A program made the position numbers and the translations under genes. This document shows, one piece after another, positions 1 to 22,171 of a DNA stretch of 46,376 nt. The notes under the pieces were generated by a model, which had not been told where the DNA came from, ran no database searches, and saw nothing but the letters and a program-made list of their open reading frames with translations. The number at the start of each line of letters is the position of its first letter. The stretch's first letter is position 1. The stretch is taken from contig MNVR01000004.1 of the NCBI GenBank assembly GCA_001873995.1, positions 1-46,376 on the forward strand. Reading direction: 5' to 3'. The stretch comes from Candidatus Phelpsiimicrobium noxiivivens (lineage in GTDB: Bacteria; Omnitrophota; Gorgyraeia; Velamenicoccales; Velamenicoccaceae).

Positions 1-3000
1 AACCTTATAGAAAAAATAATAAATATAAGAAAACCTAAATTGATCCAGTGCCCTTTTTTAACAGATGCCGCGGCTTTTATTGGATTTATAAAAAAGACAA
101 ACCTCCCGGTGTTTGTGGCCGTGAGGGGCTTTGATCTTTACAAAGGAAATAACTCAAACTTAGTGCGCGAACTATTGCCGTATGTCTCTAAATTTATTGC
201 GAAATCAAGGTCTATTTCAAACACCCTTGTTTCACTTGGATGCCCGCCTGAAAAAATTGAGGTCATACACAGCGGCGTTGACCTGACTGAACTGGCATTT
301 AAGCCAAGGGCCTTGGATAAAAAAAAGCTTAAGATATTATCATGCGGGAGATTCGTTGAAAAAAAAGGATTTGAGGCGACTTTATTATTTTTTAAAAAGT
401 TTCTGATCCAATACCCCAGGGCTACTTTAACTTTAATTGGGGAGGGCCCGCTTGAGCTAAAAATACGCCGCTTAGTAAATAGATATCACCTTGGAAAAAG
501 CATCAACATCAAAAGTGTTCTTCCGCACCGTTTATATATCAACGAGCTATACAAACACGATATTTTTGTTTTACCATCGCAGATCGCTAAAGATGGGGAT
601 AGGGAGGGGATACCCAATGTTTTAAAAGAAGCCATGGCTTCGGGCATGCCTGTCATATCTACAAACCATTCGGGCATCCCGGAACTGATCCAAGATCGAA
701 TAAACGGACATTTGGTGAACGAGGGTGATTATTCTGCCATTGCCGCCATAGCCGATAGCCTGATAAAAGACAGCTGCAAAACAGGTGAACTCTGCTGGCG
801 CGCCAGGTTCACGATCGAAAAGTATTTTGATCTGGCTGATACAGCAGGCCAATTGGAGTCCCAATATGACAGAATATTGATGCCTGATTTTGCCCGCTCA
901 ATAAGAGATATGATAGACGGCAAAAAACCCTTAAAATTCCGCGCTGACCTCCACCTGACCGCTGGATGCAACAATAAATGCATTATGTGTGACAATTGGA
1001 AGAACCCTGTCGCAGCCCCGATGGCAAAGAAAGAGGTATTAAAACTGCTCAAAGACCTCAAATCCTTTGGGGTAAATTACATAAGGTTCCATGGCCAAGA
1101 ACCATTGTTGAGGAAAGATATTTTTTCAATAATGGAGATTGCAAAAAAATTAGGGTTCTTTATTGGGATCAAAACTAATGCCTTGCTTATTGATAAAATA
1201 AATATTCGCAGGCTCTGCGCTTTAATTGACAATTTATACCTATCATTGGACTCCCATGATAAGGCTGTGCATAATTATTTAAGGGGGAATACAGCGTCAT
1301 TTGATAAAAATATCGGCCTGGTAAAGGAGATCAAAGCCAAATACCCGGATATAAAGGTCTTTTTAAACTCTGTGGTTACCGGAAAAAACTTAATAGATCT
1401 TGATCGCATGCTTGATCTAGCAAAAGAGCTTGATGTTGACCGCGTCAGTTTCGTTCATTTAAACAGGAATAATAAAGATGATCTTTCTAATGTTGCATTA
1501 AAACACAGTCAAATGGAACATTTCTATCTGAATGTTTACCCAAAAATACTTTTAAAAAGCATCAAATACAATATCCCGGTCCAGGTAGATCCCATCCTGC
1601 CAAGGCTGGCAGCACTTGAGAATAAAGAGCAGCTAGCAAGCCTTCTAGGCCAAAAGCGCAATTTTGCTTCTGAAATAAAGAAGTTTGCAGCTGGTTCTTA
1701 CGGAGAAGATTTTTACAAGGAAAACATTTGTTACGGCGTATTTGATCATGTCACTATAGATTGGGAAGGCAATGTTTATCCATGCTGCGCAATGCCAAGG
1801 AAAAAAGAAACTGCCATTGGCAACATAAGGCGAGACCCATTCTTAACTATTTGGGAAAGCGAGCGCTATGTTAATTATAGAGCAAATATCCTGGAAGGCA
1901 GATGTGCCTATAAAAATAACTGCTCAAGGAACTTTAAAGAAACGGCCATAGCAAATGATTGCCTTCGGCGCCCAAATGACCGGGCAAACGGCATCTTCAC
2001 CCATTACACCAACCAATTTATACCTGGGCATATTAAACAAGCCGAAAAATTCAAACGCATTTTGGCATACTCATTTCTTTATTCAAAATTCTACAAAAAT
2101 AAATTGCTTCACCTTCCTGGCATACTTAATGACCAGAAGAATAAGATCGATTTCTTTGTTGGCAAAAATGAGCTAAAGCACAGTTTTAGTTCTGGAGAAA
2201 ATACCCCAAACTATTTTAATGAAGATTACTGTGTTTATAGGACGTCTACGTGCGGAGAGAATGCTTTTCTTTATGCGCGGCCTCATAGATCCGAACCTTT
2301 TGACAGGATGGCTGTATCGTTTCTGGCCACAGGAAAATGGAAATACTGCCAGCCCTGGATCAAGCTGACATCAGAGAACTGTATTGAGGCATCATACCCT
2401 GTATGGGGCAAAGTATCAGATGAAAAATACAAAAATATTGATGTTTTGGTAATACCTGCCTATGAAGATTTCCTCAAAGTTGGATCCGATGAAATAAAAC
2501 GGATCTACCACATGATCCTGGATTCAAAGGCAAACTTTATTCACGCCAACCCAACATATTTAAAACTGCTGCTTTATAGATTTTCTTTAGATGGTATCTT
2601 TTTGCCGAAAGGAAGATTTTCCGTTCATTCAACCTACGAGAATTTTCTACCATCAACTATCAACTTCATCAGAAGGTATCTTTCGTGCGAATGTTTCGAC
2701 CAATATGGTTGTTCCGAGGTAGGCCCGATCAGTTTTACCTGCTCAAAAGGTAACCGCCATATTTTCAGCGATTCTGTCAAGGTAGATGTTGAACGCGCAG
2801 ATAGCCTTAAAAGAAAAGATGCAGGCCGCGTCATCATTACCAGCCTTGAAAATACTGTCATGCCGATCGTCAGGTATTTTAACGGCGATTATGCTTTGCG
2901 CCTTAATAAGGCCAGATGTAATTGCGGTTTGAAAACCCCTATTATGGGACAGATCCTAGGCAGAGAATCAGAGATCATCGAACATCGCGGCAATGCTATT

Positions 3001-3255
3001 TTTCCCTTGGATATTGATAATGCTTTTATAAAAGAACCTAATTTGCTTCTTTACCAGGCAATTTACGGTGATGCAGGGCTGCGTGTTAAATATATCCCGG
3101 CCATCAGGAATAGACATATCGATATTATCGCCATAAAGAAGAGTTTGATAAATATTTTTAAAGACGATAAATTGCCCGTTGATTTTGAAGTAACGGGCGC
3201 TATACTACCGTCTCACAGAGGTAAATTTAAAACCGTTGTTATAAATAAACCATGA
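1..3255 (+). CDS. Glycosyltransferase (GT4) - radical SAM/SPASM - PaaK-like adenylate ligase fusion, 5' partial
   Basis: The reading frame is open to base 1, so the true start lies outside the window; the first possible in-window start is TTG at 40 and residue numbers count from there. Residues about 1-285 resemble a GT4 glycosyltransferase C-terminal half: HSGVD, SCGRFVEKKGF, and an EGIPNVLKEAMASG donor-site motif. Residues about 300-620 form a radical SAM domain with C310, C314 and C317 (CNNKCIMC), a GQEP variant of the GGEP SAM-binding motif, and a C-terminal Cys-rich SPASM-like segment (VYPCCAMP). Residues about 650-1070 resemble phenylacetate-CoA ligase/CapK adenylate-forming enzymes: a TSTCGEN loop near 735, YGCSEVGP near 889, and an RYFNGD/CNCG/GR series. 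It is the first visible gene of a coupled operon, with an ATGA overlap to the next gene. Domain families are seen. The product, presumably a sugar- or acyl-modified glycoconjugate intermediate, is inference. Confidence 0.85.
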   Translation, partial: NLIEKIINIRKPKLIQCPFLTDAAAFIGFIKKTNLPVFVAVRGFDLYKGNNSNLVRELLPYVSKFIAKSRSISNTLVSLGCPPEKIEVIHSGVDLTELAFKPRALDKKKLKILSCGRFVEKKGFEATLLFFKKFLIQYPRATLTLIGEGPLELKIRRLVNRYHLGKSINIKSVLPHRLYINELYKHDIFVLPSQIAKDGDREGIPNVLKEAMASGMPVISTNHSGIPELIQDRINGHLVNEGDYSAIAAIADSLIKDSCKTGELCWRARFTIEKYFDLADTAGQLESQYDRILMPDFARSIRDMIDGKKPLKFRADLHLTAGCNNKCIMCDNWKNPVAAPMAKKEVLKLLKDLKSFGVNYIRFHGQEPLLRKDIFSIMEIAKKLGFFIGIKTNALLIDKINIRRLCALIDNLYLSLDSHDKAVHNYLRGNTASFDKNIGLVKEIKAKYPDIKVFLNSVVTGKNLIDLDRMLDLAKELDVDRVSFVHLNRNNKDDLSNVALKHSQMEHFYLNVYPKILLKSIKYNIPVQVDPILPRLAALENKEQLASLLGQKRNFASEIKKFAAGSYGEDFYKENICYGVFDHVTIDWEGNVYPCCAMPRKKETAIGNIRRDPFLTIWESERYVNYRANILEGRCAYKNNCSRNFKETAIANDCLRRPNDRANGIFTHYTNQFIPGHIKQAEKFKRILAYSFLYSKFYKNKLLHLPGILNDQKNKIDFFVGKNELKHSFSSGENTPNYFNEDYCVYRTSTCGENAFLYARPHRSEPFDRMAVSFLATGKWKYCQPWIKLTSENCIEASYPVWGKVSDEKYKNIDVLVIPAYEDFLKVGSDEIKRIYHMILDSKANFIHANPTYLKLLLYRFSLDGIFLPKGRFSVHSTYENFLPSTINFIRRYLSCECFDQYGCSEVGPISFTCSKGNRHIFSDSVKVDVERADSLKRKDAGRVIITSLENTVMPIVRYFNGDYALRLNKARCNCGLKTPIMGQILGRESEIIEHRGNAIFPLDIDNAFIKEPNLLLYQAIYGDAGLRVKYIPAIRNRHIDIIAIKKSLINIFKDDKLPVDFEVTGAILPSHRGKFKTVVINKP

Positions 3256-5219
3256 TGAACAGAATATTGTTTTATTACCATCATTTCGGAGGGTTAGGCC
3301 ACGGCATGAGGGTCTATTCTCTTTGCAAAGCCATAAAGTCAATTGACCCAAGGGCTACGATACTTGTCATAAATAGCGGCTTGCCTCAGCCGGAACTTGA
3401 AATAAAAAAATACGCCAGTGTCATCGATCTTCCTGACTTAAGCACTAAAAACTCTTTTTTCGCCAGAAAAGCTTTGCTGGAACACGTCGCCGCATCATAT
3501 AAACCGGATGCGGCAGTATTTGAACATTTCCCATTTGGAAGGCAGCTTCTAGCCCCTGAGATCATACCTTTTATCGGGCTTTTAAAACAGAACGGCGCGC
3601 GCATATATTCTTCTGCCAGGGATATCATCGCCCAAGACGTTGACTTAAAAATACTCTTAAGGCAGGCCGGTCTATTTAGCGCCATCTTTATACATGCTGA
3701 TACAAATAGCGATTTCCTTACTTCGTTCAAACAACCAATTAAATTACTTAATAAGATAGTCTTTACCGGCAGGGTATGCTGCCTGATGAAAAATGAGCTA
3801 AAAACAAAGAATATATTACGAAAAAGCATAGGCATAGGAAAGAGGCGCCTCATTCTTATTAATAATGGAGGGGGTAGGGACGGATTTGATATGCTTAAAA
3901 ATGTCATTGCCGCGAAACCCATGCTAACCGATGACATCCTTTACTTAATAGCCGCAGGGCCTTCTATCGCAGACGATAACTATAAGTATTTGAAAAAGAT
4001 AGCACAACAGGAAAAAAACATAATACTGAGAAAATTCGTACACGATTTTACTGATCATGTCAATGCCGCAGATCTTTATATAACGATGGGCGGGTATAAT
4101 TCTATCAACAACATCCTGTTGACCGGGACCAGTTCTATTGTCTTTCCCAGAAGAACAGATAAAGAGCAGGTATTGAGGGCTGCCAAATATAGGGCTCTTT
4201 TCCAAATAGCAGACTCCGACTCTAAAGCGAAATACCTGGCTGATAAGATCCGATCAGGCTTAAGATCAAAACAAAGGTCTTTATTTCATAAGCAATATTT
4301 TTTTGACGGCGCCAAAAAAACTGCCGCTTTTCTGAATAGCGCCTTATCAATAAATACCCTAAAGATCCGTCTTCATACTTATTGCAATGCGGATTGCGGC
4401 ATGTGCAGTTGGAAAGAGAAAATAGAAAGGCTACCTTACAAAAATGTACTAAAAATACTGGATCAGGCGTCATTACTCGGCATAAAAAATATAAACTTCA
4501 CTGGAGGCGAGCCATCCATTTACCCGGAAATAATACAGGCCTTAAAATATGCTAAGGATAAGGGATTCTACGTCTCTATTTCAAGCAACGGCATCTGGCC
4601 TAAGCGTATACGCGGAACAATAGCTAATACTATAGACTCCGCTGACTTATCCATAGACGCCGGCAACAAAGAAGACAATGACCTGATCCGCGGAAAGAGC
4701 GGATATTTTAAGTCCGCGCTTAGGACTTTAGCCTACCTCTTGGAAAAGAATAAACCTGTCCATGTTAATGTTACGGTGAGGCCGGACAATGCAGGGTCTT
4801 TAAGCTCAATTATCGACATGTTGCCTCGACGAGTCAGCAGTGTATCCTTCACGTTAGTTGACAATACCTTAAAAAAAGACCCAAGGTTACTTTTTAGCCA
4901 TGAAAAGCTTCTTGAATACTTTTTTAAAGAGGTGCCTCTTATCATGAAACGTGCAGCCGATAAGGGTATACGCGTATCGTTTGGCCCTTCAAAAAAACCG
5001 CGAAAAAACGGTAAGTGCCCCAGGCAAAAGGATGTCTTAAGGATCAATTCTGACGGCGCGATAAGCTTTTGTTGTTTTTTGGACGATAGCGCAAAAGACA
5101 TAGGTAATATCATGAAAGAAGGCCTGATAGACATTATTACTTCTGACAAGTTCCTTGATCTTAGAAAAAATCAGATACCAGGCAAAGGCATTTGTAAAAA
5201 TTGCAAGGGATCATCATGA
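3252..5219 (+). CDS. COG4671/MurG-like glycosyltransferase fused to a radical SAM/SPASM domain
   Basis: ATG at 3252 overlaps the previous stop as ATGA; a second ATG at 3255 is possible. Residues about 1-355 look like a GT-B glycosyltransferase of the MurG/COG4671 type: an N-terminal GGLGHGMRV loop, a NNGGGRD segment, and a MGGYNS motif where UDP-sugar enzymes bind the donor. This half is related to the free-standing protein at 7956-9188, which has SLGHTMRV and MAGYNTS at matching places. Residues about 370-655 are a radical SAM domain with C378, C382 and C385 (CNADCGMC), an FTGGEPS motif, and a Cys-rich tail (FCCFLDD ... CKNCKG) resembling SPASM. The fusion suggests that glycosyl transfer and radical chemistry act on the same intermediate. 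The substrate is unknown. Confidence 0.85.
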   Translation: MMNRILFYYHHFGGLGHGMRVYSLCKAIKSIDPRATILVINSGLPQPELEIKKYASVIDLPDLSTKNSFFARKALLEHVAASYKPDAAVFEHFPFGRQLLAPEIIPFIGLLKQNGARIYSSARDIIAQDVDLKILLRQAGLFSAIFIHADTNSDFLTSFKQPIKLLNKIVFTGRVCCLMKNELKTKNILRKSIGIGKRRLILINNGGGRDGFDMLKNVIAAKPMLTDDILYLIAAGPSIADDNYKYLKKIAQQEKNIILRKFVHDFTDHVNAADLYITMGGYNSINNILLTGTSSIVFPRRTDKEQVLRAAKYRALFQIADSDSKAKYLADKIRSGLRSKQRSLFHKQYFFDGAKKTAAFLNSALSINTLKIRLHTYCNADCGMCSWKEKIERLPYKNVLKILDQASLLGIKNINFTGGEPSIYPEIIQALKYAKDKGFYVSISSNGIWPKRIRGTIANTIDSADLSIDAGNKEDNDLIRGKSGYFKSALRTLAYLLEKNKPVHVNVTVRPDNAGSLSSIIDMLPRRVSSVSFTLVDNTLKKDPRLLFSHEKLLEYFFKEVPLIMKRAADKGIRVSFGPSKKPRKNGKCPRQKDVLRINSDGAISFCCFLDDSAKDIGNIMKEGLIDIITSDKFLDLRKNQIPGKGICKNCKGSS

Positions 5220-7024
5220 ACACCATTAAGTCTCTCAATTGGATAATAACTAATAGATGTAATAGCCGCTGCTTACACTGCGCCATTTGGAAAGAAAAAA
5301 AACTTAACGAAATTTCTTTAAACGATGCCAGGTGCATCCTGTCTGACCCATTGATAAACAAAAGTTATTTTGCTAAGCATGGCCTGGATATCGCATTAGG
5401 AGGAGGAGAGACATTTCTTCATCCGGATCTACCAAAAATAATACGAGAGATCAAAAAAACTTATCCTGGTGCCCTGAAAACCATCTCAACTAACGGCCTC
5501 TTAACAGATGAGATCTGTGATTTTGTCAAAAATAACTTAAACGAAAATATTAAGCTCAATATAAGTATAGACGGTCTAAAAGATATACACGATAGGATAA
5601 GAGGTATAAAAGGAGGATTTGACGCAACCCTAAAGACGATCGTCAAGGTCCGCGCTATCAGCCTGCGCCAGAAGATAGAGATCAAACTGACGATCCTGCC
5701 TGAAAATCATGGCCAGATCACAAAAGTTTTCGCGCTGGCGGAAAGATTGAAATGTAATTTTTCTTTCAAACCCGCGGAAAACATGAGGCAATATACAAAT
5801 AAAGGCCGCGACCTCGATATAAATTTTGATCCGAGCCAGTTATGTTCTATCAGAAACCAGGCCTTTATTATTTCAGATTCTATGAGAAATAAGTCTGAGT
5901 ATAAGAAAGCTGAGTTTTTTAAAGATATACCTTTTTATCTTTTTTCAAGATCAAGGGCTACCTTTTGCTCAGTGCTAAAAGAACATCTAACAGTGATGCC
6001 TGACGGCCTGGTCTTTGATTGCATAAAAGGCCTGCCGCTCGGCAATATTCATTCTGCTGACCTTAAGCGCCTTGTCCATAATTCAATAACGCCTGCAGAT
6101 TGCGACTCTTGCATGCTGATGTGCGGAGCGTTTAAAGGCTACGAAGAACATCTTAATACATCCAAAACAGCTAATATTGAGATCACGAACCGATGCAATT
6201 TATCCTGCAGCATGTGCACACAGAAAGAGCTTAGGTCAAACGATCACAGTGACCTGACGCTTGAACAATTTGTTTGCCTTATACAAACGTATAAGGATAT
6301 TGGCCATGTCTCTTTCGTAGGAGGAGAGTCGTTCCTGAATAAAGACTTCTTTGGCATGATGGAATACCTTGATGGAAAGAAAATAACTTATGAGTTGACC
6401 ACCAATGGGACCATTATTACAGATAGCACGATACATCGCTTAAAAAGAATGGCTGGATTGAAAAATATCTCTTTTTCTCTTGATGGCATGGAAAAATACC
6501 ATGACAAAGAAAGAGGAAAAGGCGTTTACTCAAAATGCTTGATGAACCTTAAAAAATGCGCTTCAAGTTTCGCTGTCAGCGTTTCTTCAATAGTTAAAAG
6601 CGACAACATTGAAGAATTGGCTAAATTAACTGTCACTCTTAAAAAGATACGCCTTCAAAGGCATAAACTTATCTTAGGCATAGATATTAGCGGCCGCCAA
6701 AAATATTCATCCCTCGTCAAAATTCCGACATTAATGATACAGGGCCCGGTTTTAAAAAACTACTTAAAAGATATTGATCTTTTTATTGACCTCTATATCA
6801 GGCTTTCTAAACTGCATGGCAACGCTGTGGATATTAAAACAGAACCATTGATGCACGATAACAGAGCTGAATGCAAACAACTAAAACAATACCGTTTTGA
6901 CCCTTCCGGGAAACGTATTTTCTGCGAATTTATCCGTAACGACGTAAGCGATAAAACGATCCCGGTTTCATATCTGAAAAGGGCTGCTTTAGCTATTTGC
7001 GAAAGATGCTGTAAACGCCAATGA
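5216..7024 (+). CDS. Tandem double radical SAM protein
   Basis: I chose ATG 5216, which forms an ATGA overlap with the upstream stop and has an AAGGGA Shine-Dalgarno-like motif at 5205-5210. An upstream in-frame TTG at 5201 is less likely. The protein is 602 aa with two complete CX3CX2C motifs: C15/C19/C22 (CNSRCLHC) and C327/C331/C334 (CNLSCSMC). Each is followed by a GGE motif (GGGETF, GGESF) and an SxDG strand (SIDGL, SLDGM), so both halves look like intact radical SAM barrels. Domain 1 ends in a PDG...C...C segment (VMPDGLVFDC, CDSCMLMC) resembling an auxiliary-cluster site. Domain 1 is similar to the single-domain protein at 10079-11017, including an FKxxENxxxYT stretch, so they are probable paralogues. 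Whether both halves are active cannot be seen. One may be a peptide or sugar epimerase/dehydrogenase-type module. Confidence 0.85.
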   Translation: MNTIKSLNWIITNRCNSRCLHCAIWKEKKLNEISLNDARCILSDPLINKSYFAKHGLDIALGGGETFLHPDLPKIIREIKKTYPGALKTISTNGLLTDEICDFVKNNLNENIKLNISIDGLKDIHDRIRGIKGGFDATLKTIVKVRAISLRQKIEIKLTILPENHGQITKVFALAERLKCNFSFKPAENMRQYTNKGRDLDINFDPSQLCSIRNQAFIISDSMRNKSEYKKAEFFKDIPFYLFSRSRATFCSVLKEHLTVMPDGLVFDCIKGLPLGNIHSADLKRLVHNSITPADCDSCMLMCGAFKGYEEHLNTSKTANIEITNRCNLSCSMCTQKELRSNDHSDLTLEQFVCLIQTYKDIGHVSFVGGESFLNKDFFGMMEYLDGKKITYELTTNGTIITDSTIHRLKRMAGLKNISFSLDGMEKYHDKERGKGVYSKCLMNLKKCASSFAVSVSSIVKSDNIEELAKLTVTLKKIRLQRHKLILGIDISGRQKYSSLVKIPTLMIQGPVLKNYLKDIDLFIDLYIRLSKLHGNAVDIKTEPLMHDNRAECKQLKQYRFDPSGKRIFCEFIRNDVSDKTIPVSYLKRAALAICERCCKRQ

Positions 7025-7959
7025 TGAACTTAAACAACAAACAACGACTTAGCTTAGGCATACTTCCGCGGTCTATTAGCCTAAAAATATCGCTGGATAT
7101 AGGATGTAACGCAAAATGCGTGATGTGCGACGACCACTACTACAAAAAAAACAACTTTAATTATAGGGAACTTGACAGGTTGATCGGCTTTCTTGACGCA
7201 ACGATGATCAAGAAGATAGACCTGATCGGAGGGGAACCACTGGTTGACAAGGATAATTTGTTGAAGATCATAAAAAAGATCAGAAAGAAAGGCATCGATA
7301 CGACTTTTACGACCAATGGTGTATTATTGAATAAAAAGACGCTGGATAAAATGACCTCATATGGCATAAATGAGATCACGATCTCACTGGACGCGGCCGG
7401 CAAAAAACATGATATGCTCAGAGGAATTCCAGGACTATTTAATAAGATCAACTCTATCGCTGATCATTGCAATCAAAACCACCGCAACTTTAAGATCAAT
7501 TTAAATACTATAATTATGAAAAATAATATTGATTCGATCCCGCGCCTTGTGCTATGGGCGCAAAAAATGAACATTAATTCTATCTCTTTATTACGGCTTG
7601 TCCGATATAATAATGCGTATGAATCTTTGCGTGTGAACAATCGCGATATCATAGGATTACTATTTAAGCTTATCAAGCTCAGGTCTTGTTTTATCTTCAA
7701 AAAACCTTTAGCAATGAAAAATGACGGCATAAAAGGCTGCTCATACCTTACGCATAGGCTAATCGTCAACGATAAGGGACAGGTCACCCCTTGCTGGAAA
7801 AAAGAAGATCGCGGTTTTTTTATTGATAGGCCATTAAAAAAACTTTACTTAGATAAAAACTTCAGGAATTACTTGCTTGATAAGATAAATAATTGCGGTG
7901 ACAATTGCCCTAACTGTTTGATCGTTTCACTTATAAGGCCTTTAAATTACGTTAAATGA
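7021..7959 (+). CDS. Radical SAM protein with Cys-rich C-terminus
   Basis: A 312-aa protein starting at ATG 7021 (ATGA overlap; ATG 7024 is an alternative). It has C29/C33/C36 (CNAKCVMC), a LIGGEPL motif, an FTTNG strand and SLDAA, the usual landmarks of a radical SAM barrel. The C-terminus has GQVTPCW and a terminal CGDNCPNC, consistent with a SPASM- or twitch-like auxiliary Fe-S site. It is the size of single-domain SPASM enzymes that modify peptides or sugars. It lies between a double radical SAM gene and a glycosyltransferase, overlapping both by 4 bp, so it is almost certainly co-translated with them. Substrate unknown. Confidence 0.85.
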   Translation: MMNLNNKQRLSLGILPRSISLKISLDIGCNAKCVMCDDHYYKKNNFNYRELDRLIGFLDATMIKKIDLIGGEPLVDKDNLLKIIKKIRKKGIDTTFTTNGVLLNKKTLDKMTSYGINEITISLDAAGKKHDMLRGIPGLFNKINSIADHCNQNHRNFKINLNTIIMKNNIDSIPRLVLWAQKMNINSISLLRLVRYNNAYESLRVNNRDIIGLLFKLIKLRSCFIFKKPLAMKNDGIKGCSYLTHRLIVNDKGQVTPCWKKEDRGFFIDRPLKKLYLDKNFRNYLLDKINNCGDNCPNCLIVSLIRPLNYVK

Positions 7960-14771: not shown

Positions 14772-17499
14772 GACGCACCAAGTTAGAGAAATAAATACGC
14801 GGGTCTTGATCTATCAAGCCAAGCGATTTAACTTTCAGTTTCAATATATTACTGATATATTCCTGCTGACTCTTCTTAAGCTGCCATGGAAGGCCGTTCT
14901 TTTCTGAAAAAGGCATACCATCAGTTGATCCTGAATCAAGGGTATGGTCTATGGAAATACCGAATTTACCGGGATACGCGTAGATTGGGCTATTACGCCT
15001 TAGCTTAAACTGATAAACATTGACGCAACTTATATTCTTGCGGTTATTTGTTATAAAATCTATGGCCAGATCAAGGTCTTTTGAGCATTCATAAGGAAAA
15101 CCAACAATAACAGATATCTGATTATCTATGCCGTGCCTGTTGGCAGCGAATAAGATCTTTGCTATTTCCTGCGTATTTAAGCCCTTATCAATGGCTCTCT
15201 GCTTGTAAGGATCAAGAGTTTCGATCCCCCATCTGATGTGCCGGCAACCGGCATAAGCCATTTTTTTAAGGAGCGCTTCGGAAACATCTTTCGCGATCAT
15301 ATAACAAGACCATGAGAGTCTTGGCTTAATACCTGCCATTATATCAAGCAACGCGCCTAACCGGCCATTATCCATGTTTAAAGCGTCGTCATGAAAATAG
15401 ACGTTTGGCTCAATCGCTAGCTTTGCCAGTGCCCTGAGATCCTTAGAAACAAGAAAAATATCCTTAAACCACAGAGCCTTTCCTGACAGCGAAGAACAGT
15501 AAAAACAATTATGCTTACATCCGCAACTAGTCTCATAATCAAATAAAACAGGAGGGGTAAGGCCATGCTTAGCGAGGAAATCGATATGCATGGAATAATC
15601 CATCAAACCAGGGGCAGCAGGGACAGTAGCCTTTTTTTCTAAGAGTTCTAATATTGTTTCAGGGGCGTCTGTTCTTAGGACTTTATCAATAAAAGCATAC
15701 TTCCTGGATATCTCTTTTGAGTAAAAATTGCAATGAGGCCCCCAAAAAATTATCTTTGAAGAAGGGTGTGCCTTTTTAAGATACCTTGCCAAAGCCAGGG
15801 CAGTCCGAAGGTTCCTGTCCCACCATGAGATGTAAAAAAAATAAAAACTGCTCTTTTTGACTAATGGTGCCATTAATTCAACAAGTATACGCTCCTTACC
15901 CTCCGGTGTCCGGAACGGATGACGTAAAAAATAGCCTTGTATTTTGGCATGTTCACCAAACAAAAGTAAAAAATTAAGATATTCTATACCAGCGATATTT
16001 CTGGCCTTCAATAAAGAGATAGCTTTAAAAATCGACAGAAGAGACCTTCCATCGTCATCAACAGTGCCGCCGCCTGGAAAAGAATCCTGCGGCGAAATGA
16101 TAAAAGCCGCTCTGTGAGGAGCTGTTAACACTTCAATGATATCTTCTGAAGGAATGTTTAACTTTTTTAGGATAGAGGCATATTGCTCTGCTTTTTTCTT
16201 ATCTGATTCAATAGCTGGTCTGCCACATAGCAACGCTTCTAAATAAGCAAGGCTAAAATGGCCCAATTCCCCCCATACGCATTCTTTAACAGAATCAATA
16301 TAAGGATGCATGCGGGCCAAAAATTTATTAGTCTTATCAATGTCTGCCTTAGCTTCTTGTTTGAGCCCGGACAAAAGCGTGACATAATTATAAATACCCA
16401 GTTCATGGGCATTTTTAATAGCATCTATTATGGAATCCAAAGTAGTCTTTTTACTGATGAGCTTGAGCATTTTAGGTGAGGCATATTCAACACCCCACCT
16501 TAACTGCCTGCACCCGCCGGCCTTCATGCTTATTAAAAGGCGTTTTGAAATATTCGGTATTGCCAAAGCGCTCCAGTTGATCTTGGGGACTCTTGCGCGC
16601 AATGCCGGGCATAGCCGGTTCAAATATGCCTCGTCCGAATTAATGGCCGCGTCCATGAAATGAAAATAGTTAGTTTTATATTTTTTCGACAAAAAAGCCA
16701 GATCATCAGTTACTTTGCCGATATCTTTATGCGCGAGCTTACCCTTATGGATGTAATAGCAGAAAAAACATTTATTCGCGCATCCTCTGCTTATTTCATA
16801 TGGAAGCACGACTTTACCCGAAGATGAATAACGCCTAAGGTCAAAAAGACCGAAATAAGGCCGTGGCATCTTATTCAGGCCCAGAACGCGGCGCTCATCG
16901 GTATATGTGAGGCCTTTATCGGCCCTGAAGATAACGCCTTTTACTGGGCTATTATCGCGCCCCCTGCCTAAATAATCCAAAAGGGAGAACTCGTTGCCAT
17001 CCTCAAGGAACGCATCTACAAAAGAGAAGACAGCCATTAACTTTCTGGCATGTTTTTTAGGACAATTACCGAAAAAAACGATCTTTGCGCAAGGTTGAGA
17101 CACTTTCAGGGCCTTAGCCAAACACAGTGAAACTATCAAGTACTGGAGAGAAAATTGTTCAAGCACAGATATGGAAAAAATAAAAAAATCAGCCTTTGGA
17201 GAACCTGCATTTACTATGACATTCTTTGTAAAGGCATTAAGGGCATGGTCCGGACATTTCAATAAATGATCAAAACACCTGGAGAATTGGTTGAGAAGGA
17301 ATAGACCAGAAGCCCAATTTGAAGATGCCGCGCTTGCGTTAATAACATCTACCCTCTGATCGATCAAGCCTAAACGGTATCTTCCTGTTTGCCTTATGAG
17401 AGCTGCAAGATTGGCAACATCCAATGCCGGAGATTTGATCATTCCGGGGCCCATAGGAGAGGGTGGCAGCCAAATTATAATATGGGGGCTTTTAGGCAT
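14764..17499 (-). CDS. Tandem duplicated B12-binding-like/Elp3-type radical SAM protein
   Basis: A 911-aa protein made of two similar halves. Each half has a Rossmann-like front part with FFGNCPKKHA or FWGPHCNFYS (the position of a cobalamin-binding or degenerate B12 domain), followed by a radical SAM core: C240/C244/C247 (CANKCFFC) and C661/C665/C668 (CKHNCFYC). Each core continues with the Elp3-type GCRxxRWGxE motif (GCRQLRWGVE, GCRHIRWGIE). I cannot find the DxHxxG cobalamin motif in either half, so corrinoid binding is uncertain. B12-type radical SAM enzymes methylate or rearrange unactivated carbons. The duplication is internal and the two halves have diverged clearly, so it is not recent. 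It overlaps both operon neighbours by 8 bp. Confidence 0.85.
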   Translation of the reverse strand: MPKSPHIIIWLPPSPMGPGMIKSPALDVANLAALIRQTGRYRLGLIDQRVDVINASAASSNWASGLFLLNQFSRCFDHLLKCPDHALNAFTKNVIVNAGSPKADFFIFSISVLEQFSLQYLIVSLCLAKALKVSQPCAKIVFFGNCPKKHARKLMAVFSFVDAFLEDGNEFSLLDYLGRGRDNSPVKGVIFRADKGLTYTDERRVLGLNKMPRPYFGLFDLRRYSSSGKVVLPYEISRGCANKCFFCYYIHKGKLAHKDIGKVTDDLAFLSKKYKTNYFHFMDAAINSDEAYLNRLCPALRARVPKINWSALAIPNISKRLLISMKAGGCRQLRWGVEYASPKMLKLISKKTTLDSIIDAIKNAHELGIYNYVTLLSGLKQEAKADIDKTNKFLARMHPYIDSVKECVWGELGHFSLAYLEALLCGRPAIESDKKKAEQYASILKKLNIPSEDIIEVLTAPHRAAFIISPQDSFPGGGTVDDDGRSLLSIFKAISLLKARNIAGIEYLNFLLLFGEHAKIQGYFLRHPFRTPEGKERILVELMAPLVKKSSFYFFYISWWDRNLRTALALARYLKKAHPSSKIIFWGPHCNFYSKEISRKYAFIDKVLRTDAPETILELLEKKATVPAAPGLMDYSMHIDFLAKHGLTPPVLFDYETSCGCKHNCFYCSSLSGKALWFKDIFLVSKDLRALAKLAIEPNVYFHDDALNMDNGRLGALLDIMAGIKPRLSWSCYMIAKDVSEALLKKMAYAGCRHIRWGIETLDPYKQRAIDKGLNTQEIAKILFAANRHGIDNQISVIVGFPYECSKDLDLAIDFITNNRKNISCVNVYQFKLRRNSPIYAYPGKFGISIDHTLDSGSTDGMPFSEKNGLPWQLKKSQQEYISNILKLKVKSLGLIDQDPRIYFSNLVRHA

Positions 17500-18595
17500 G
17501 TAAAGACACGAATTTTCTTAGAGTACAGCAGATTCTGTCGATTTCTTCACCAGAAAGGAATAAGGGGATAGGCAAAGCCAGGGCTGCCTCAGAAACCTCA
17601 TCCGTTACAGGAAGCCTGGCTGCGGGGTTTACAAAACCGCGAAAATAAGGCATCTTATGAAGAGGTGATCTATACCTGGATTTAGCAATTATGCCTTTTT
17701 TTCGCAAAAAAACTTCCAATCGAACGCGATCTTTGGTTAGAATAACAAAATCCCTATACACATTTTTAGCATTTTTTTCAGACTTTTGGACATTAAAAAA
17801 AGCGCTAATCTTCTTTTTATAGAGAGAGGCTAAATATACCATCTTTTCATTGATCTCACCTAAAAATGGCAATTTTGCGTTGAGAAAAGCTGCCTCAAAA
17901 AGGCCCATGCGGCAAGGCGTCCTGTGAGAAAGAGGGCCAGCAGGGTCATTACTTACTTTTATTAAACCAAGGATTGCCTTGTAAAGAAGTTTATTATTGA
18001 CCGTGATCAGGCCGGCATTCCCAAAGCAGCCAAAATTTTTATTTGTGTAACAACTGAAACATCCCACGCCAAAATTCCCAACTTTTATACCGTCATATTC
18101 GGCCCCGTGGGCATGGCTGGCGTCTTCAATAACAGGCAACCTGTGTTTTCGCGATATCTCCATGATATCTTTCATGGCACATGGATTTCCATGAATATGG
18201 ACAGCGATAATGGCCCTGGTCTTACTTGTGATATTCTTTCGGATAGATCCGGGCGAAATGGTCCAGGTATCCTTATCAATATCTGCGAAAACCGGTATAG
18301 CGTTAAGATTCATGACAGAAAGGCCGGTGGCAATATATGTATAAGACGGAAGGATGACCTCGTCGCCTTTTTTTACCCCTAAGGCGTTAAGCGACAATTC
18401 AAGGGCCGTTGTGCCAGAATTAACAGCTATAGCATATTCGGAAAAATTGAATTTTGCGAAACGGGCCTCAAAGCCATTCAAGAACCTTTCCTGGTCATCA
18501 TCATTGCTCAATCCAAAGACTTCCCGGAATTGTTTTATGGCCACAGGCAAAAGGAACTTATTTTCACGGCTGTAATCTTCGAAGGGTATATCCAT
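17492..18595 (-). CDS. DegT/DnrJ/EryC1-family PLP aminotransferase
   Basis: A 367-aa PLP enzyme of the sugar aminotransferase family, starting at ATG 18595. It shows the phosphate-binding NSGTTAL, the EVILPSYTY strand, the EDASHAHGAEY aspartate/histidine motif near residue 158, and the Schiff-base lysine K186 in YTNKNFGCFGNAG. Family members convert a nucleotide-linked keto sugar to an amino sugar using glutamate or glutamine; some act as dehydratases or epimerases. It is the strongest hint that the locus handles amino sugars. It lies 1 nt after the A24 peptidase-like gene and overlaps the tandem radical SAM gene by 8 bp. Confidence 0.92.
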   Translation of the reverse strand: MDIPFEDYSRENKFLLPVAIKQFREVFGLSNDDDQERFLNGFEARFAKFNFSEYAIAVNSGTTALELSLNALGVKKGDEVILPSYTYIATGLSVMNLNAIPVFADIDKDTWTISPGSIRKNITSKTRAIIAVHIHGNPCAMKDIMEISRKHRLPVIEDASHAHGAEYDGIKVGNFGVGCFSCYTNKNFGCFGNAGLITVNNKLLYKAILGLIKVSNDPAGPLSHRTPCRMGLFEAAFLNAKLPFLGEINEKMVYLASLYKKKISAFFNVQKSEKNAKNVYRDFVILTKDRVRLEVFLRKKGIIAKSRYRSPLHKMPYFRGFVNPAARLPVTDEVSEAALALPIPLFLSGEEIDRICCTLRKFVSLHA

Positions 18596-18596
18596 A

Positions 18597-19526
18597 CTAC
18601 CTCATAATAGTTGAAAAAAATTGAATTGCTATTTTTACAAGATCTGTATTGGCCACAAGAGTGCCGACCATCATAAAAGGAGCGAACGGTATTATTTCGC
18701 CCGTTTCAGAAACCTTAGGGATGCCATGGGATCTACTTTTTAACAACTCAGACTGGGTCAATATATTCAAAAAATAAAAAAAGAGGGTGAATTTCAAAAT
18801 ACGTAAAAAATATGCCAAAAAAGAACTAATATGGAAAATATTGGACTGAAAAATGACCCTTGCTACGATACCGATCGCGACAGCCGACAGGATAATATGC
18901 CTTTTTTCTTGAAACCGGTCCATGAAACGTTCTACGGTGCCATAAAATATAAAAAGGATGATTATTTTAGCGTATACATCATACTTGAATTTTAATATAT
19001 CCATAAAGGGCCAGATAAGCCAGGGAGTGACAAAAGAAATGTGCATCCTTTCCGTAAGAAAAATTTTAAATATCTTGTTCATATGGAGGCCTTTTAACAA
19101 GGCTGACTTATCTTTATAGTAAAAAAACCGCAATATCGTGACTATCAGGATAGCTAGCATGCTTAACAGGAAGATCGACAGAAAAATCGGCATGCAGGGA
19201 AAAGGGAAAATAGCAATATAACGGTCGACCGGCATTAAAAACGCGTATGTCGCAAAAAGCTTGCCATCTCCTGCGCCCCAGAGATTTGCCCAATAAAAAG
19301 CAAAACCTGTCGCGGACGCGAACAATATGTTCGCTGCAAAAAGATATGGGCCTATTATAAGCCCTTTGCCAAGGAACATCTGTAACGCGTAAACACAGAT
19401 ACCTGCCAGAATAGCGAAAAAAAGATACCTGTTCATTATGAGATGCGATCTCACGTCTGAAAAAGTAGTCAAGACCCCCAACAAAACAATGATCGGGTAA
19501 AAATAGTAGATTTCTGCGATCTGCAT
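18597..19526 (-). CDS. A24 prepilin-peptidase-like (GxGD) membrane protein
   Basis: I start at ATG 19526 (309 aa). A TTG at 19553 would add nine residues but lies inside the promoter. The protein has about seven to eight hydrophobic segments. It carries the two aspartates of GxGD aspartyl peptidases in the right order: D24 in TFSDVRSHLIMN and D87 in LWGAGDGK, both at cytosolic ends of helices. The prepilin peptidase N-terminal methylase Cys domain is absent, as in TadV/CpaA- or archaeal FlaK-type enzymes. It is the first gene of the minus-strand operon and sits 1 nt before the aminotransferase. No pilin-like substrate gene is visible. Protease activity is plausible; the role in this locus is unknown. 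Confidence 0.75.
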   Translation of the reverse strand: MQIAEIYYFYPIIVLLGVLTTFSDVRSHLIMNRYLFFAILAGICVYALQMFLGKGLIIGPYLFAANILFASATGFAFYWANLWGAGDGKLFATYAFLMPVDRYIAIFPFPCMPIFLSIFLLSMLAILIVTILRFFYYKDKSALLKGLHMNKIFKIFLTERMHISFVTPWLIWPFMDILKFKYDVYAKIIILFIFYGTVERFMDRFQEKRHIILSAVAIGIVARVIFQSNIFHISSFLAYFLRILKFTLFFYFLNILTQSELLKSRSHGIPKVSETGEIIPFAPFMMVGTLVANTDLVKIAIQFFSTIMR

Positions 19527-19532
19527 AGTCTT

Positions 19533-19560
19533 ATTATATTTGTGATACGACAATTAGCAA
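19533..19560 (-). promoter_or_regulatory. Sigma70-type promoter for the minus-strand operon, leaderless-type
   Basis: On the minus strand a TTGCTA -35 (19560-19555) and a perfect TATAAT -10 (19538-19533) are 16 nt apart. Only 6 nt separate the -10 box from ATG 19526, so transcription would begin at about the A of the start codon. No Shine-Dalgarno precedes the ATG. Confidence 0.7.
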
Positions 19561-19587
19561 GAAAAATTCACGGCGAAACTCCATTCC

Positions 19588-19615
19588 TTGAAATATTCGC
19601 TTATGGGTATATAAT
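19588..19615 (+). promoter_or_regulatory. Sigma70-type promoter for the U32-rSAM operon, near-leaderless
   Basis: TTGAAA (19588-19593) and TATAAT (19610-19615) are 16 nt apart. The ATG of the downstream gene is at 19628, leaving an expected 5' leader of roughly 5 nt and no Shine-Dalgarno. It is divergent from the promoter at 19533-19560; the two -35 boxes are 27 nt apart, so shared regulation is possible. Confidence 0.75.
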
Positions 19616-19627
19616 ATCCCTACTAAA

Positions 19628-20455
19628 ATGAGAATAGTTTGCCCTCTGCCAAGCGATTACAATGTGACACAACTTCTAGACCTGGGAGTAAGAGATTATT
19701 ACTTTGGTTACATCCCGGCCTTTTGGAGCAAAAACCATTCTTTGATAAATTCGATAAACAGGAGATGCACGCCTGAGTCGCAATCTTGCGAAAAACGCGT
19801 AAAAAGCTTCTTAAAGAATAGCGGCAATAAAGGCCTTAACCTATACGCAACTTTTAACGCGCCCTTATATACAACAGAGCAGATCACAAAAATACTTTCA
19901 GCGCTTGACGGCCTGTTAAAGATCGGACTTAGAGGGGCCATCGCGACTGACCTAGGCCTTATCATAACTGCCAGAGATTATTTTCCTAAACTAGAGATAC
20001 ATGCCAGCTGCGGAACAGTATGCCTGAACTCAGGAACTATGTATTTCCTATCAAAATTAGGCGTACAGCGCATAATACTATCCCGTTCTCTTGCGCTTAA
20101 AGAGATCAGGGAGTTATGCGCCGATGCTCGCGGCATGGAGCTTGAGATCATCCATCAGGATGCGCCCGGCTATTGCATAAATATTGACGGCTTATGCACG
20201 CACCACCATACAAATGTCAGGCCCTGCGACGAGCAGAAGCTTTTTGCCAAAGGAATGCCTATGACTATCCCAGTGGCATCGTATTCAAAGCTCTACTGGC
20301 TATACAAATACGGCGTCAGTCATATAAAATTACTGGAAAGAGGCATGACGTCCGCCCAATTATTAAAAAAACACAAATTTTTAATAACACTTATAAATAA
20401 CCTAGAGGCGCTAAAACCAAAATCGTTAAACGCATGGAAAAAGTCGTTTTACTGA
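19628..20455 (+). CDS. Peptidase U32 family protein, UbiU-like
   Basis: A 275-aa protein with the U32 layout: a beta-strand start with LPSDYNVTQLLDLGVRDYYFG, then EIHASCGTVCLNSGTMYFL and GVQRIILSRSL, followed by the Fe-S site. There C-x6-C (GYCINIDGLC) matches the U32 C-x6-C signature, and a third Cys follows nine residues later (VRPC). A fourth Cys at the usual distance is not present. U32 pairs such as UbiU-UbiV insert oxygen without O2, and others act on rRNA (RlhA) or tRNA (TrhP). The next gene is the UbiV-like partner, overlapping by 22 bp. The link to the radical SAM locus suggests O2-independent hydroxylation of its product (inference). Confidence 0.8.
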   Translation: MRIVCPLPSDYNVTQLLDLGVRDYYFGYIPAFWSKNHSLINSINRRCTPESQSCEKRVKSFLKNSGNKGLNLYATFNAPLYTTEQITKILSALDGLLKIGLRGAIATDLGLIITARDYFPKLEIHASCGTVCLNSGTMYFLSKLGVQRIILSRSLALKEIRELCADARGMELEIIHQDAPGYCINIDGLCTHHHTNVRPCDEQKLFAKGMPMTIPVASYSKLYWLYKYGVSHIKLLERGMTSAQLLKKHKFLITLINNLEALKPKSLNAWKKSFY

Positions 20456-21231
20456 ACAACTGGAAGCACATCAAAGATAAGTTGTCCGGAATGGGCCGCA
20501 TTTACTTTGGCAGCGAATTCTGCGACTATATTCTCCCTTCGCCAAAAGACGTTGATAGGCTCATTAAAATGAGAAAAGATACAAACATCGCTTTTAGCAT
20601 TGTCACGCCATATCTGAACCAACGCAGGCTTACGCAACTCACAAAGCTTTTAATTTTTATCAATGTGCATACACCTGAAATTGAGGTCATCGTAAATGAC
20701 TGGGGAGTGCTTCATATGCTATATACGCGTTTTCCACGATTGCAAGCCGTTCTTGGGCGAGTATTGAGCCGCCAGAAACGCGGCCCCTTCGTCAAGGTAC
20801 GTTCTGAGTTCGTTCAGATAGAAAAATTGGGCCTTAAAAAAACGGACCAAATATACTTGAAGTCTTCTATCCTCCAAAATGATCATATTGTCAGACTGGC
20901 TAAAGAATATAAGATCAAACGAATAGGGCTTGATAATACCCGACAAGGAATTATTTTTGAAAATAAAGGATTTTCAATAGATCTTTATTATCCTTATATC
21001 TATATCACTACGTCAAATTATTGCATGACCGAAATGATAGAAAGAAAAAGGGAACTTTTTGTAAAAACTGACGCTTGTCGGCGCTTTTGCTTCAATTCGG
21101 GCCTTAATAAGATCAAAATAGGAGAGGAGTGGGTATATCTTTTTGGGAACACCCAATTTTACCCAAACGATACCACTTCTATGCGCGGTATTCCCAAATA
21201 TGTAAACCGTCTGATAAAAGTCTCTTTTTAA
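20434..21231 (+). CDS. Peptidase U32 family protein, UbiV-like
   Basis: A 265-aa protein, ATG 20434 inside the end of the previous gene. Its IYFGSEFC start (C30), VTPYLNQRRL segment, EVIVNDWGVL and LQAVLGRVLSRQK motifs, and a late C-x17-C-x3-C (including CRRFC), match the four-Cys pattern known for UbiV-type U32 proteins, which ligate a 4Fe-4S cluster. The UbiU/UbiV pair works as a heterodimer, and the 22 bp overlap here fits stoichiometric co-translation. No other ubiquinone gene is visible, so a quinone role is not supported. Hydroxylation of a product of the neighbouring genes is more in keeping with the context. Confidence 0.8.
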   Translation: MEKVVLLNNWKHIKDKLSGMGRIYFGSEFCDYILPSPKDVDRLIKMRKDTNIAFSIVTPYLNQRRLTQLTKLLIFINVHTPEIEVIVNDWGVLHMLYTRFPRLQAVLGRVLSRQKRGPFVKVRSEFVQIEKLGLKKTDQIYLKSSILQNDHIVRLAKEYKIKRIGLDNTRQGIIFENKGFSIDLYYPYIYITTSNYCMTEMIERKRELFVKTDACRRFCFNSGLNKIKIGEEWVYLFGNTQFYPNDTTSMRGIPKYVNRLIKVSF

Positions 21232-21235
21232 TAAA

Positions 21236-22171
21236 ATGGCCAACTTTAAACAAACGACCTATTGCCCTAACCTCTGGAAAGAAGCCTACATAGATGACAA
21301 AGGGGACGTTTACGGCTGCTGCGTAAAAAAACCACATGTATTGGGGAATATATACAAAGAAAAGCTGGAAGATATCTGGAACAACAAAACCTTATATTTA
21401 TTCCGAAAAAAGTCCCTTGCCGGACAATTGTCATGTTTTAGCAGGTGTACCCTTACCAGGAGCAAAACAGAACATCCGTATAACTCGCCGACCGCGCCTT
21501 TCAGCAGTTTAGAAAATCTAAGCATCCGCTTCGGACAAGCCTGTCAGCTTCAATGCATAATGTGCTCTCTGGACCACAAGGACAAAGGATCTCTGGACCT
21601 CAAAAAGATCCTTCCTAATCTTGACCTGACGCATATCAAACTTATCTGTATGCAGGGAGGAGAACCTCTTTTGATCAAGGCGGCAAAAGATTTTTTTGAT
21701 CATGCCTATTCTCTTGAAAAAAAAGTTTCATTTCTTACGAACGGGCTATTGATCAATGATGAATGGGCTAAAAAAATATCCATCTGTTCCCCTTTTGTGT
21801 ATTTTTCAATTAACGCAGCGACAAAAAAAACGCACGAGTTAATAAATAAAGGATCAAAATGGGAAGTCGTCCTAAAGAACATACAAAGAGTCAGGAGCGC
21901 TAGAAAAAAATACTATTCCAAGATCAGGATATTCGGCCACATAACCATTGTGATAGAAAACCTGCCGGAGATCCCGCTTTTTATAGAAAAATTCAAACGA
22001 TTAGGTTTTGATATGATCAACTTCGGATTTGATTCATCAGTGCCGTTATACCTTGCATCGCATCTTAAAGAGATGTTATATTTAAGGATAAAGATCCGCA
22101 AAGCTTTAGAAGACTCCTGCGATTGCGACAAGATTGACCTGCATCAGTTAAGCATTCTGGGCCTTGCTTAA
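21236..22171 (+). CDS. Radical SAM protein with N-terminal (permuted) SPASM-like segment
   Basis: A 311-aa protein starting 4 nt after the U32 stop. Residues about 1-75 read like the end of a usual SPASM protein: [20 protein letters not shown], then [15 protein letters not shown] and FRKKSL...CFSRC. The radical SAM core comes after it, with C103/C107/C110 (CQLQCIMC), [12 protein letters not shown] and the SINAA strand. In ordinary SPASM enzymes this segment follows the barrel, so the order is reversed. It could instead be a fused remnant of another SPASM protein. It ends the U32 operon. No terminator is obvious before the pgk promoter. Confidence 0.85.

Follow-up and report, generated by a model that had tools for sequence, protein, structure and literature searches.

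A radical SAM-rich locus of Omnitrophota that probably belongs to an enlarged His-Xaa-Ser peptide-maturation pathway

Among the described systems that lie closest to the locus analysed here are the A24 prepilin peptidases, which include PilD, TadV and FlaK, and the His-Xaa-Ser (Hxs) peptide system with its components HxsA, HxsB, HxsC and HxsD (TIGR03976-TIGR03978, and NF038309 for HxsA3). The locus fills positions 1-22171 of the window, which is the entire contig C21 (46,376 bases) of Candidatus Phelpsiimicrobium noxiivivens, an uncultured bacterium whose named relatives are Omnitrophota, a little-known group, and whose genome (G000) measures 1.56 Mb (1,559,666 bases) in 39 contigs at 91% completeness. 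Its 16 genes, dominated by radical S-adenosylmethionine (SAM) enzymes, are judged with moderate confidence to represent most of an enlarged pathway by which Omnitrophota would mature Hxs peptides: much of the set reappears in other genomes, it is linked there to HxsB, HxsD and HxsA, and HxsB co-occurs across the phylum with the A24-type subfamily to which the locus contributes a member, P0013. As for earlier work, the available passages of one paper mention HxsB and HxsC, citing Haft and Basu, and do not give the product (PMC9062424), those of a study of Omnitrophota discuss Tad and type IV pili and do not contain the term 'radical SAM' (PMC10066038), and the available parts of two further papers describe Omnitrophota gene clusters in broad outline (PMC9902471, PMC11123730). 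Within the open-licence literature no experimental account of an Hxs product was found, though NCBI models name the systems, and no listed title joins prepilin peptidases with radical SAM enzymes, or Omnitrophota with radical SAM enzymes, with ribosomally synthesised and post-translationally modified peptides (RiPPs), or with glycosyltransferases and pili.

Much of this set reappears in three further contigs, which a scan of named genomes returned as PCWA01000089 (Omnitrophica CG11, genome G021), MHHG01000029 (Omnitrophica, G147) and JADFXX010000012 (Omnitrophota, G148). Reciprocal best hits (RBH), tested against 18 window proteins only and in relatives of mixed completeness, cover 11 of the 16 genes in G021 (P0001-P0003 and P0006-P0013), 13 in G147 (the same genes plus P0014 and P0015) and nine in G148 (P0001, P0003, P0006, P0007, P0008, P0011, P0013, P0014 and P0015), the last count spanning 40 of the 64 kb of its contig and omitting P0010, whose best match there is HxsB. 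P0017, encoded beyond the interval, adds a further RBH in G021 and in G147. Gene order and strand vary between genomes, and it is therefore the gene set that is conserved rather than its exact order; the original prediction, made from the window alone, had suggested looking for the same order elsewhere, and only the shared content was found. Its proposal that the enzymes act together agrees with this recurrence, as homologues are neither scattered singly nor stripped of their cluster residues. A near-full-length homologue of P0001 outside the window occurs only in G021 among 147 relatives including the window genome itself, 26 of which give some match, partial in the others.

All three contigs carry an Hxs cassette, consisting of HxsD, HxsB and a small His/Ser-rich precursor, near the gene set. 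Against the curated cut-off of 370 bits for HxsB (TIGR03978), scores of 379, 372, 456 and 384 bits were obtained in G021, G148, G149 and G245, the last taken as the same genome as G147 from its equal contig number and coordinates. The HxsD-like proteins reach 40.4 and 45.6 bits against a cut-off of 50, and the two precursors that were scanned match HxsA3 at 39-40 bits (E 2e-10 and 5e-10; cut-off 65). The closest association is found in G148, where a single-strand run with gaps of at most 109 bp reads HxsD, HxsB, HxsA, a 255 aa protein, radical SAM x2, GT28/GT4/radical SAM, PaaK, radical SAM, U32a and U32b. Furthermore, the five genomes with a P0001-type radical SAM domain and PaaK, fused or adjacent (G000, G021, G147, G148 and G149), all have HxsB. 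The named-genome scan also returned a short contig of G149, a genome labelled Aenigmatarchaeota; on its contig C81 (L152) the order, read by eye, is an A24-like gene, HxsD, HxsD2, HxsB, a precursor and a GT28-like gene. This genome has a compact Hxs operon and several relatives of the cluster on short contigs (L057-L061), and its Hxs genes may reflect transfer or misbinning. A glycoconjugate or amino-sugar/peptidyl metabolite, with no ribosomal peptide named, had been predicted as the product, and this part of the prediction was not supported, the context pointing instead to an Hxs RiPP system with an A24-like protease, which the prediction had not listed.

HxsB loci of the phylum are mostly rich in radical SAM-like open reading frames (ORFs). 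Their density near HxsB is 1.4-4.5 per 10 kb in 14 stretches from 13 genomes, and in a wider set of 37 HxsB stretches, excluding C23 of the window genome, the median is 2.2 (range 0-4.9), or 1.5 when HxsB is excluded; seven stretches around the A24 gene that do not contain HxsB give 0-4.0. These densities are based on ORFs that contain CX3CX2C and are 230 aa or longer, whereas the background of the window genome (0.26 per 10 kb) comes from Pfam domains, and the ratio between them is therefore a rough one. Several of the loci carry relatives of window genes, including GT28, DegT, deacetylase, PaaK and U32a/b; homologues of P0005 are found in the HxsB loci of G007 (35%) and G107 (33%), and among the loci read a FemAB-like gene is present in G000, G021, G147 and G149. 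A further radical SAM protein, P0028, recurs in HxsB loci and stands directly next to the A24 gene in several contigs.

The most telling evidence concerns P0013 and its subfamily. In 12 A24-like proteins of Hxs loci, residues D33, N41, G95, D96 and K98 (first-row numbering) are invariant, so that both Asp residues of the motif context D...IxN and GxGDxK are kept, with the first G of GxGD variable. The subfamily shares with A24 prepilin peptidases the invariant D...N and G-D-x-K, and the P0013 homologues of G021, G014 and G006 score 28.4-32 bits with PF01478, above its cut-off; it differs from them in a long C-terminal half with an I-P-F-A-P motif and in its linkage to HxsB. Each of these three genomes has an Hxs-type A24 protein plus a canonical one, both above the Pfam cut-off. 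A single A24 protein is present in the HxsB-negative G003 and G005, and in G000 the search reported the canonical protein only. A profile built from the 12 proteins finds 14 of the 147 relatives, exactly the 14 with HxsB; ten of these contributed rows to the profile, and G002, G004, G099 and G107 did not. Across a draw of 374 genomes of the phylum (the A24 and HxsB draws being taken as the same genomes because size and settings agree), HxsB is found in 33, the A24 subfamily in 36 and both in 32. The subfamily is thus present in 32 of 33 HxsB genomes and in four of the 341 others (Fisher 9e-41), and after removal of the seed genomes in 22 of 23 and four of 341 (Fisher 3e-30), values not corrected for phylogeny or shared ancestry. 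The exceptions are G356, with HxsB and without A24, and G227, G263, G269 and G399, with A24 and without HxsB. One family (f1) is nevertheless mixed, both genes being present in G000, G002, G004, G006 and G007 and absent from G001, G003 and G005. The two genes share a contig in 25 of the 32 pairs, 1.8-31.8 kb apart.

The precursors of these loci are about 76-143 residues long. They begin with a leader of the DE-x-G-F-V-S-K-E-x-I-L type, continue with a hydrophobic segment and end in a tail rich in His, Ser, Thr and Asn. When small ORFs were picked by H-x-S/T content alone, all 11 accepted precursors had the leader Gly at the proposed position -1, and seven of them had Asp or Glu at +5; one further row of this set (L078) was judged spurious and dropped. 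The full collection from the relatives comprises 40 precursors, with Gly in 39 and an acidic +5 residue in 25, figures in which leader conservation is partly built in because the later members were found by a regular expression or profile derived from earlier ones; three of the 40 (G099, G277 and G149) were missed by the regular expression and read by eye. In the group with D-[DE]-x-G-[FYNL] the acidic residue is present in 25 of 27, the exceptions being G356 and G376, and G356 is the only HxsB genome of the draw that has no Hxs-type A24 protein. In the remaining precursors, most of which have E-E-G-K, the +5 residue is usually Lys. A simple rule by which presence of A24 would imply an acidic +5 seemed to hold in the first loci and was then rejected, as G008, G047, G145 and G087 proved to have A24 together with precursors that carry Lys at that position. 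Three plasmid-borne Hxs cassettes from Pseudomonadota and Cyanobacteriota keep HxsC, and the N-termini there look, by eye, like plain signal peptides; no annotated A24 gene lies within 5 kb of them in a gene table that is incomplete. In a Calothrix cassette, no HxsA was recognised in the two ORFs translated.

Several further proteins and features were observed around the Hxs loci. The P0021 family is secreted-looking and Cys-rich (L032 14157-15017; G147:C29 10582-11376), recurs both in 10 HxsB stretches and, in G004, on the contig of the A24 side, and has no Pfam or NCBIfam match; a partner or second substrate is a possible role. Proteins upstream of HxsD/HxsB in G000 and G021 have in common a 'YPxPxGIYxxM/L'-like motif near the N-terminus (Table 1). 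Assemblies break at or near the Hxs locus in three genomes (G000:C21/C23, G004:C3/C5 and G007:C57/C135), perhaps owing to repeated precursor or radical SAM sequence.

A pathway compatible with these observations would begin with synthesis of the small HxsA precursor with its prepilin-like leader, hydrophobic segment and His/Ser/Thr/Asn-rich tail. The tail would then be modified by HxsB, a radical SAM/SPASM protein, together with the HxsD proteins. The radical SAM, glycosyltransferase, DegT, deacetylase, AsnB, PaaK, FemAB-like and U32-like enzymes of the window might build and attach unusual sugars and acyl or amide groups, or alternatively act directly on the tail. Finally, P0013, as a dedicated A24-type protease, may cleave the exported precursor after the leader Gly in the manner of a prepilin peptidase, leaving a membrane-anchored or pilin-like peptide. 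The steps from tail modification onward, the cut site and the substrate of every window enzyme are predictions from gene content and neighbourhood. The Omnitrophota loci share with the described Hxs system an HxsB that scores above cut-off in relatives, and resemble it in HxsD-like proteins and small precursors with H-x-S-rich tails, both of which score under cut-off; they differ from it in the prepilin-like leader, the A24 subfamily and many extra radical SAM and glycosyltransferase genes, as well as in HxsC, which scored above its cut-off in none of the 17 genomes searched. With HxsB found in the relatives, HxsD and HxsA matched there under cut-off and HxsC not found, the locus is called a variant of the Hxs pathway.

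The missing HxsC is one of a number of points that weigh against this assignment, several of which concern the window genome itself. Its HxsB gene (C23:3-1295, minus strand; 356 bits, under the cut-off of 370) lies on C23 and not on the window contig, and the contig end truncates its C-terminus at position 423 of the 466 in the model. HxsD-like genes precede it. Neither the window nor C23 yielded a precursor; one would lie beyond the C23 break. The orientation of C23 and C21 is compatible with adjacency, which is no proof of it, and joining the two was rejected, as their ends share no 15-, 20- or 25-mer in 400 bp; for the window's own genome we infer the Hxs linkage from the relatives. The stretch of C23 near HxsB has only 0.61 radical SAM-like ORFs per 10 kb. 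The full fusion seen in P0001 occurs in three genomes as against HxsB in 33 of 374, and most window enzymes are therefore dispensable for Hxs systems generally. The A24 and HxsB genes lie on different contigs in seven of the 32 pairs (G000, G004, G107, G220, G323, G330 and G345), and in G107 they look unlinked, neither being within 3 kb of a contig end. As to the cleavage step, 15 of the 40 precursors do not have the acidic +5 residue, though A24 is present in most of those genomes; the hydrophobic segment often ends, by eye, in A-x-A, and signal peptidase I is a possible alternative processing enzyme. Classification of the precursor as a Pfam pilin was rejected, with no pilin domain found in any of ten. 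P0013 itself scores 22.8 bits with PF01478 against a cut-off of 26.5. Its structural model (mean predicted local distance difference test score, pLDDT, 75, which is fair) gave 55 Foldseek matches to the PDB at E<=10 and none at E<=0.001; no A24 protease was seen among 50 of the 55, the presence of one in the library being unchecked, and the A24 profile A3 matches no PDB chain at E<=1. With no fold match, the A24 label therefore rests on the motifs and on the Pfam scores of the homologues.

Among other explanations, the one that survives best is that the glycosyltransferase, radical SAM, AsnB and PaaK block builds a separate surface glycan or lipid-linked oligosaccharide, standing next to the Hxs genes merely as an envelope function, with its sugars never placed on the HXS peptide. 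Although it is rather unlikely, it draws on several observations: XrtA-type polysaccharide loci likewise contain GT4, deacetylase, FemAB-like and AsnB families (TIGR03019, TIGR03108 and TIGR03088, all matched under cut-off), the HxsB-bearing C23 (59.7 kb) has three DegT-family genes, and most HxsB genomes of the draw have no full-length match to the PaaK profile. The combination of FemAB-like, AsnB-like and GT4 genes, under cut-off, is shared with XrtA/PEP-CTERM exopolysaccharide loci; the window differs from them in being dominated by radical SAM genes and in having, by Pfam, no exosortase or polymerase in the interval. Likewise, no flippase, polymerase or initiating phosphoglycosyltransferase was found by Pfam among the 16 window proteins, C23 not having been scanned, and the operon-like series of precursor, HxsB and block in G148, as well as the presence of HxsB in all five genomes with the P0001-type radical SAM and PaaK combination, favours a connection with the peptide. 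A less probable alternative, and a rather implausible one, is an anaerobic small-molecule cluster of aminoglycoside-like or nucleoside-like type, in which glycosyltransferases, DegT, B12-type radical SAM methylases and amide formation by PaaK and AsnB act with no ribosomal peptide involved; the PaaK domain does match acyl- or amide-forming ligases, among them ClxA, AjiA1 and NatL2, and P0011 matches B12-type radical SAM methyltransferase models under cut-off, but the relatives link the set to HxsB/HxsA and the A24 subfamily, and Pfam detects neither efflux nor resistance families among the genes of the interval. That radical SAM genes simply duplicate and accumulate in arrays with no common product is very improbable, as nine to 13 of the 16 genes are RBH in each of three other contigs, even though G147 has a second array (C5 80001-106163, L063/L064) with 13 radical SAM-like ORFs in 26 kb, two DegT relatives and no HxsB match in the stretch read.

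Within the window, the Radical_SAM model (PF04055) detects 11 domains in nine genes of the interval, every protein scoring above the curated Pfam cut-off. Counted as a literal string, CX3CX2C is present 12 times in the nine proteins, owing to an extra copy at residue 292 of P0004, outside its radical SAM domain; the eleven motifs in nine genes of the original prediction are in agreement with the domain count. A glycine-rich SAM-type motif downstream of the cluster motif is present in all nine domains other than those of P0011, in which a regular-expression scan found none in either. The whole genome has 40 such domains, every one above cut-off. The window contig carries 11 of these, and the chance of at least 11 of 40 falling within 22,171 of 1,559,666 bases is 8e-12 (0.57 expected), a result that fits the extraordinary density claimed at the outset. 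None of the nine proteins matches an NCBIfam model above its curated cut-off among the best 25 matches per protein, and assignment of any of them to a known named enzyme was rejected, all listed matches being under cut-off. A phage origin was also rejected: a scan of viral contigs returned four loci with matches confined to residues 14-254, the glycosyltransferase part (E 4e-13 to 4e-11).

Little space separates the genes, with 11 of the 15 junctions within the interval overlapping by 4-22 bp, one convergent pair overlapping by 56 bp and three gaps of 1, 4 and 74 bp. Nearly all genes had been predicted to overlap by 4-22 bp, which holds for those 11 junctions; the layout in three strand blocks (+, -, +) is not that of a single operon. 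The expected fusions are present, namely GT4-radical SAM/SPASM-PaaK, GT28-radical SAM/SPASM, deacetylase-AsnB and the double radical SAM proteins P0003 and P0011, as are the expected neighbours, with GT4- and GT28-type glycosyltransferases, DegT and one U32 protein found alongside the deacetylase-AsnB fusion. The FemAB/GNAT assignment of P0009 is weak, at 26.7 bits with Pfam and 30.5 bits with TIGR03019, under the cut-off of the latter. The halves of P0011 correspond to separate genes in G147. Between the putative pgk and tpiA genes, positions 23474-23854 encode a 126 aa protein, which by eye we take to be like the 23S-rRNA-intervening-type four-helix proteins.

Table 1. Genes of the locus and further proteins with coordinates (positions refer to the window unless a locus is given; RBH, reciprocal best hit; the three loci are those of G021, G147 and G148)
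Feature	Position	Strand	Assignment	Basis
P0001	1..3255	+	GT4 - radical SAM/SPASM - PaaK-type adenylating fusion; N-terminus lost at contig edge	Pfam; profile, fold
P0002	3252..5219	+	GT28-type glycosyltransferase - radical SAM/SPASM fusion	Pfam; RBH G021, G147
P0003	5216..7024	+	two radical SAM domains in one chain	Pfam; RBH G021, G147, G148
P0004	7021..7959	+	radical SAM	Pfam; no RBH in three loci
P0005	7956..9188	+	GT28-type glycosyltransferase	Pfam; no RBH in three loci
P0006	9181..10092	+	radical SAM/SPASM	Pfam; RBH G021 54%, G147 53%, G148 30%
P0007	10079..11017	+	radical SAM/SPASM	Pfam; RBH G021, G147, G148
P0008	10962..12863	-	polysaccharide deacetylase (DUF2334) - AsnB fusion	Pfam; RBH G021, G147, G148
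P0009	12847..13719	-	FemAB/GNAT-like acyltransferase	Pfam Acetyltransf_6; RBH G021, G147
P0010	13716..14771	-	radical SAM; top scores PapB/SCIFF peptide maturases, under cut-off	Pfam; RBH G021, G147
P0011	14764..17499	-	two B12-type radical SAM domains in one chain	Pfam; RBH G021, G147, G148
P0012	17492..18595	-	DegT/DnrJ/EryC1 aminotransferase	Pfam; RBH 48% in G021 and G147
P0013	18597..19553	-	A24-type (prepilin-peptidase-like) membrane protein, Hxs-linked subfamily	motifs, Pfam under cut-off, co-occurrence
P0014	19628..20455	+	U32 peptidase-like (TrhP/UbiU-like), short version	Pfam; RBH G147, G148
P0015	20434..21231	+	second U32-like protein, four conserved Cys	homologues adjoin U32a in G147, G148, G145
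P0016	21236..22171	+	radical SAM with N-terminal SPASM domain	Pfam; no RBH in three loci
P0017	25199..26914	+	GATase_7/AsnB-like, beyond the interval of the original prediction	Pfam; RBH 35% in G021 and G147, inside cluster there
'YPxPxGIYxxM/L'-like protein	L081 1963-2538	-		
'YPxPxGIYxxM/L'-like proteins	L032 7324-7947, 7954-8535			

P0001 is a GT4-radical SAM/SPASM-PaaK-type adenylating fusion. The locus was predicted to run off the left edge of the window, and indeed this edge is the contig end, where P0001 is about 93 residues short relative to its homologue P0025 (47% over 1083 aa). A profile of five homologues of its C-terminus matches phenylacetate-CoA ligase 4r1l at E=1e-32, and the model of the domain matches 4rvn (Foldseek 9.5e-16); as the N-terminal half of this model is poor (mean pLDDT 58), the identification leans more on the profile match than on the model. 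Y-G-C-S-E, G-D, G-R and G-K are invariant in five PaaK-type sequences. The profile match, fold match and catalytic-type motifs are thus shared with PaaK-type AMP ligases such as phenylacetate-CoA ligase, ClxA and NatL2, from which P0001 differs in that its PaaK domain is joined to GT4 and radical SAM/SPASM domains. All 436 positions of the PaaK profile are matched, at about 700 bits, in three of 384 genomes of the phylum draw (G000, G021 and G245), and the complete fusion was found in three genomes; PaaK is a separate adjoining gene in G148, and the GT4 part is a separate ORF in G149.

The two U32-like proteins had been predicted to form an O2-independent hydroxylase-like pair. In UbiU/UbiV-type U32 pairs each partner has four Fe-S cysteines. 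P0015, which has no Pfam match, retains four Cys (30, 197, 215 and 219), in keeping with the prediction. P0014 matches U32 (Pfam) and the TrhP/UbiU models, with NCBIfam scores far under the cut-offs; at 275 aa, as against 311-336 in three homologues, it does not have several of the Cys that the homologues keep. P0014 (U32a) appears from its sequence to be a shortened or degenerate copy, and the pair does not show the pattern of four Cys per partner.

If the locus does belong to an enlarged Hxs maturation pathway, a bolder extension may be entertained, tentatively and as a doubtful one, under the term 'prepilin RiPP'. It envisages a short His/Ser peptide with a pilin-type leader on which as many as about twenty radical SAM and glycosyltransferase enzymes would install radical modifications and sugars in the cytoplasm. 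A dedicated A24-type protease would then cut the peptide, which would be displayed or polymerised at the surface as a decorated fibre that possibly binds metal. If true, this would tie RiPP biosynthesis to the export and processing route of type IV pilins. In the GT4-radical SAM-adenylating fusion, a single chain may combine the transfer of sugars with radical chemistry and with the formation of amides or esters. The strong phylogenetic profile provides one branch of the Hxs systems with a candidate for a dedicated protease and with a defined precursor site, which opens an orphan RiPP family to functional tests. Hxs systems are a poorly understood peptide family, and the Omnitrophota block suggests a new way to build and trim a heavily decorated secreted peptide.

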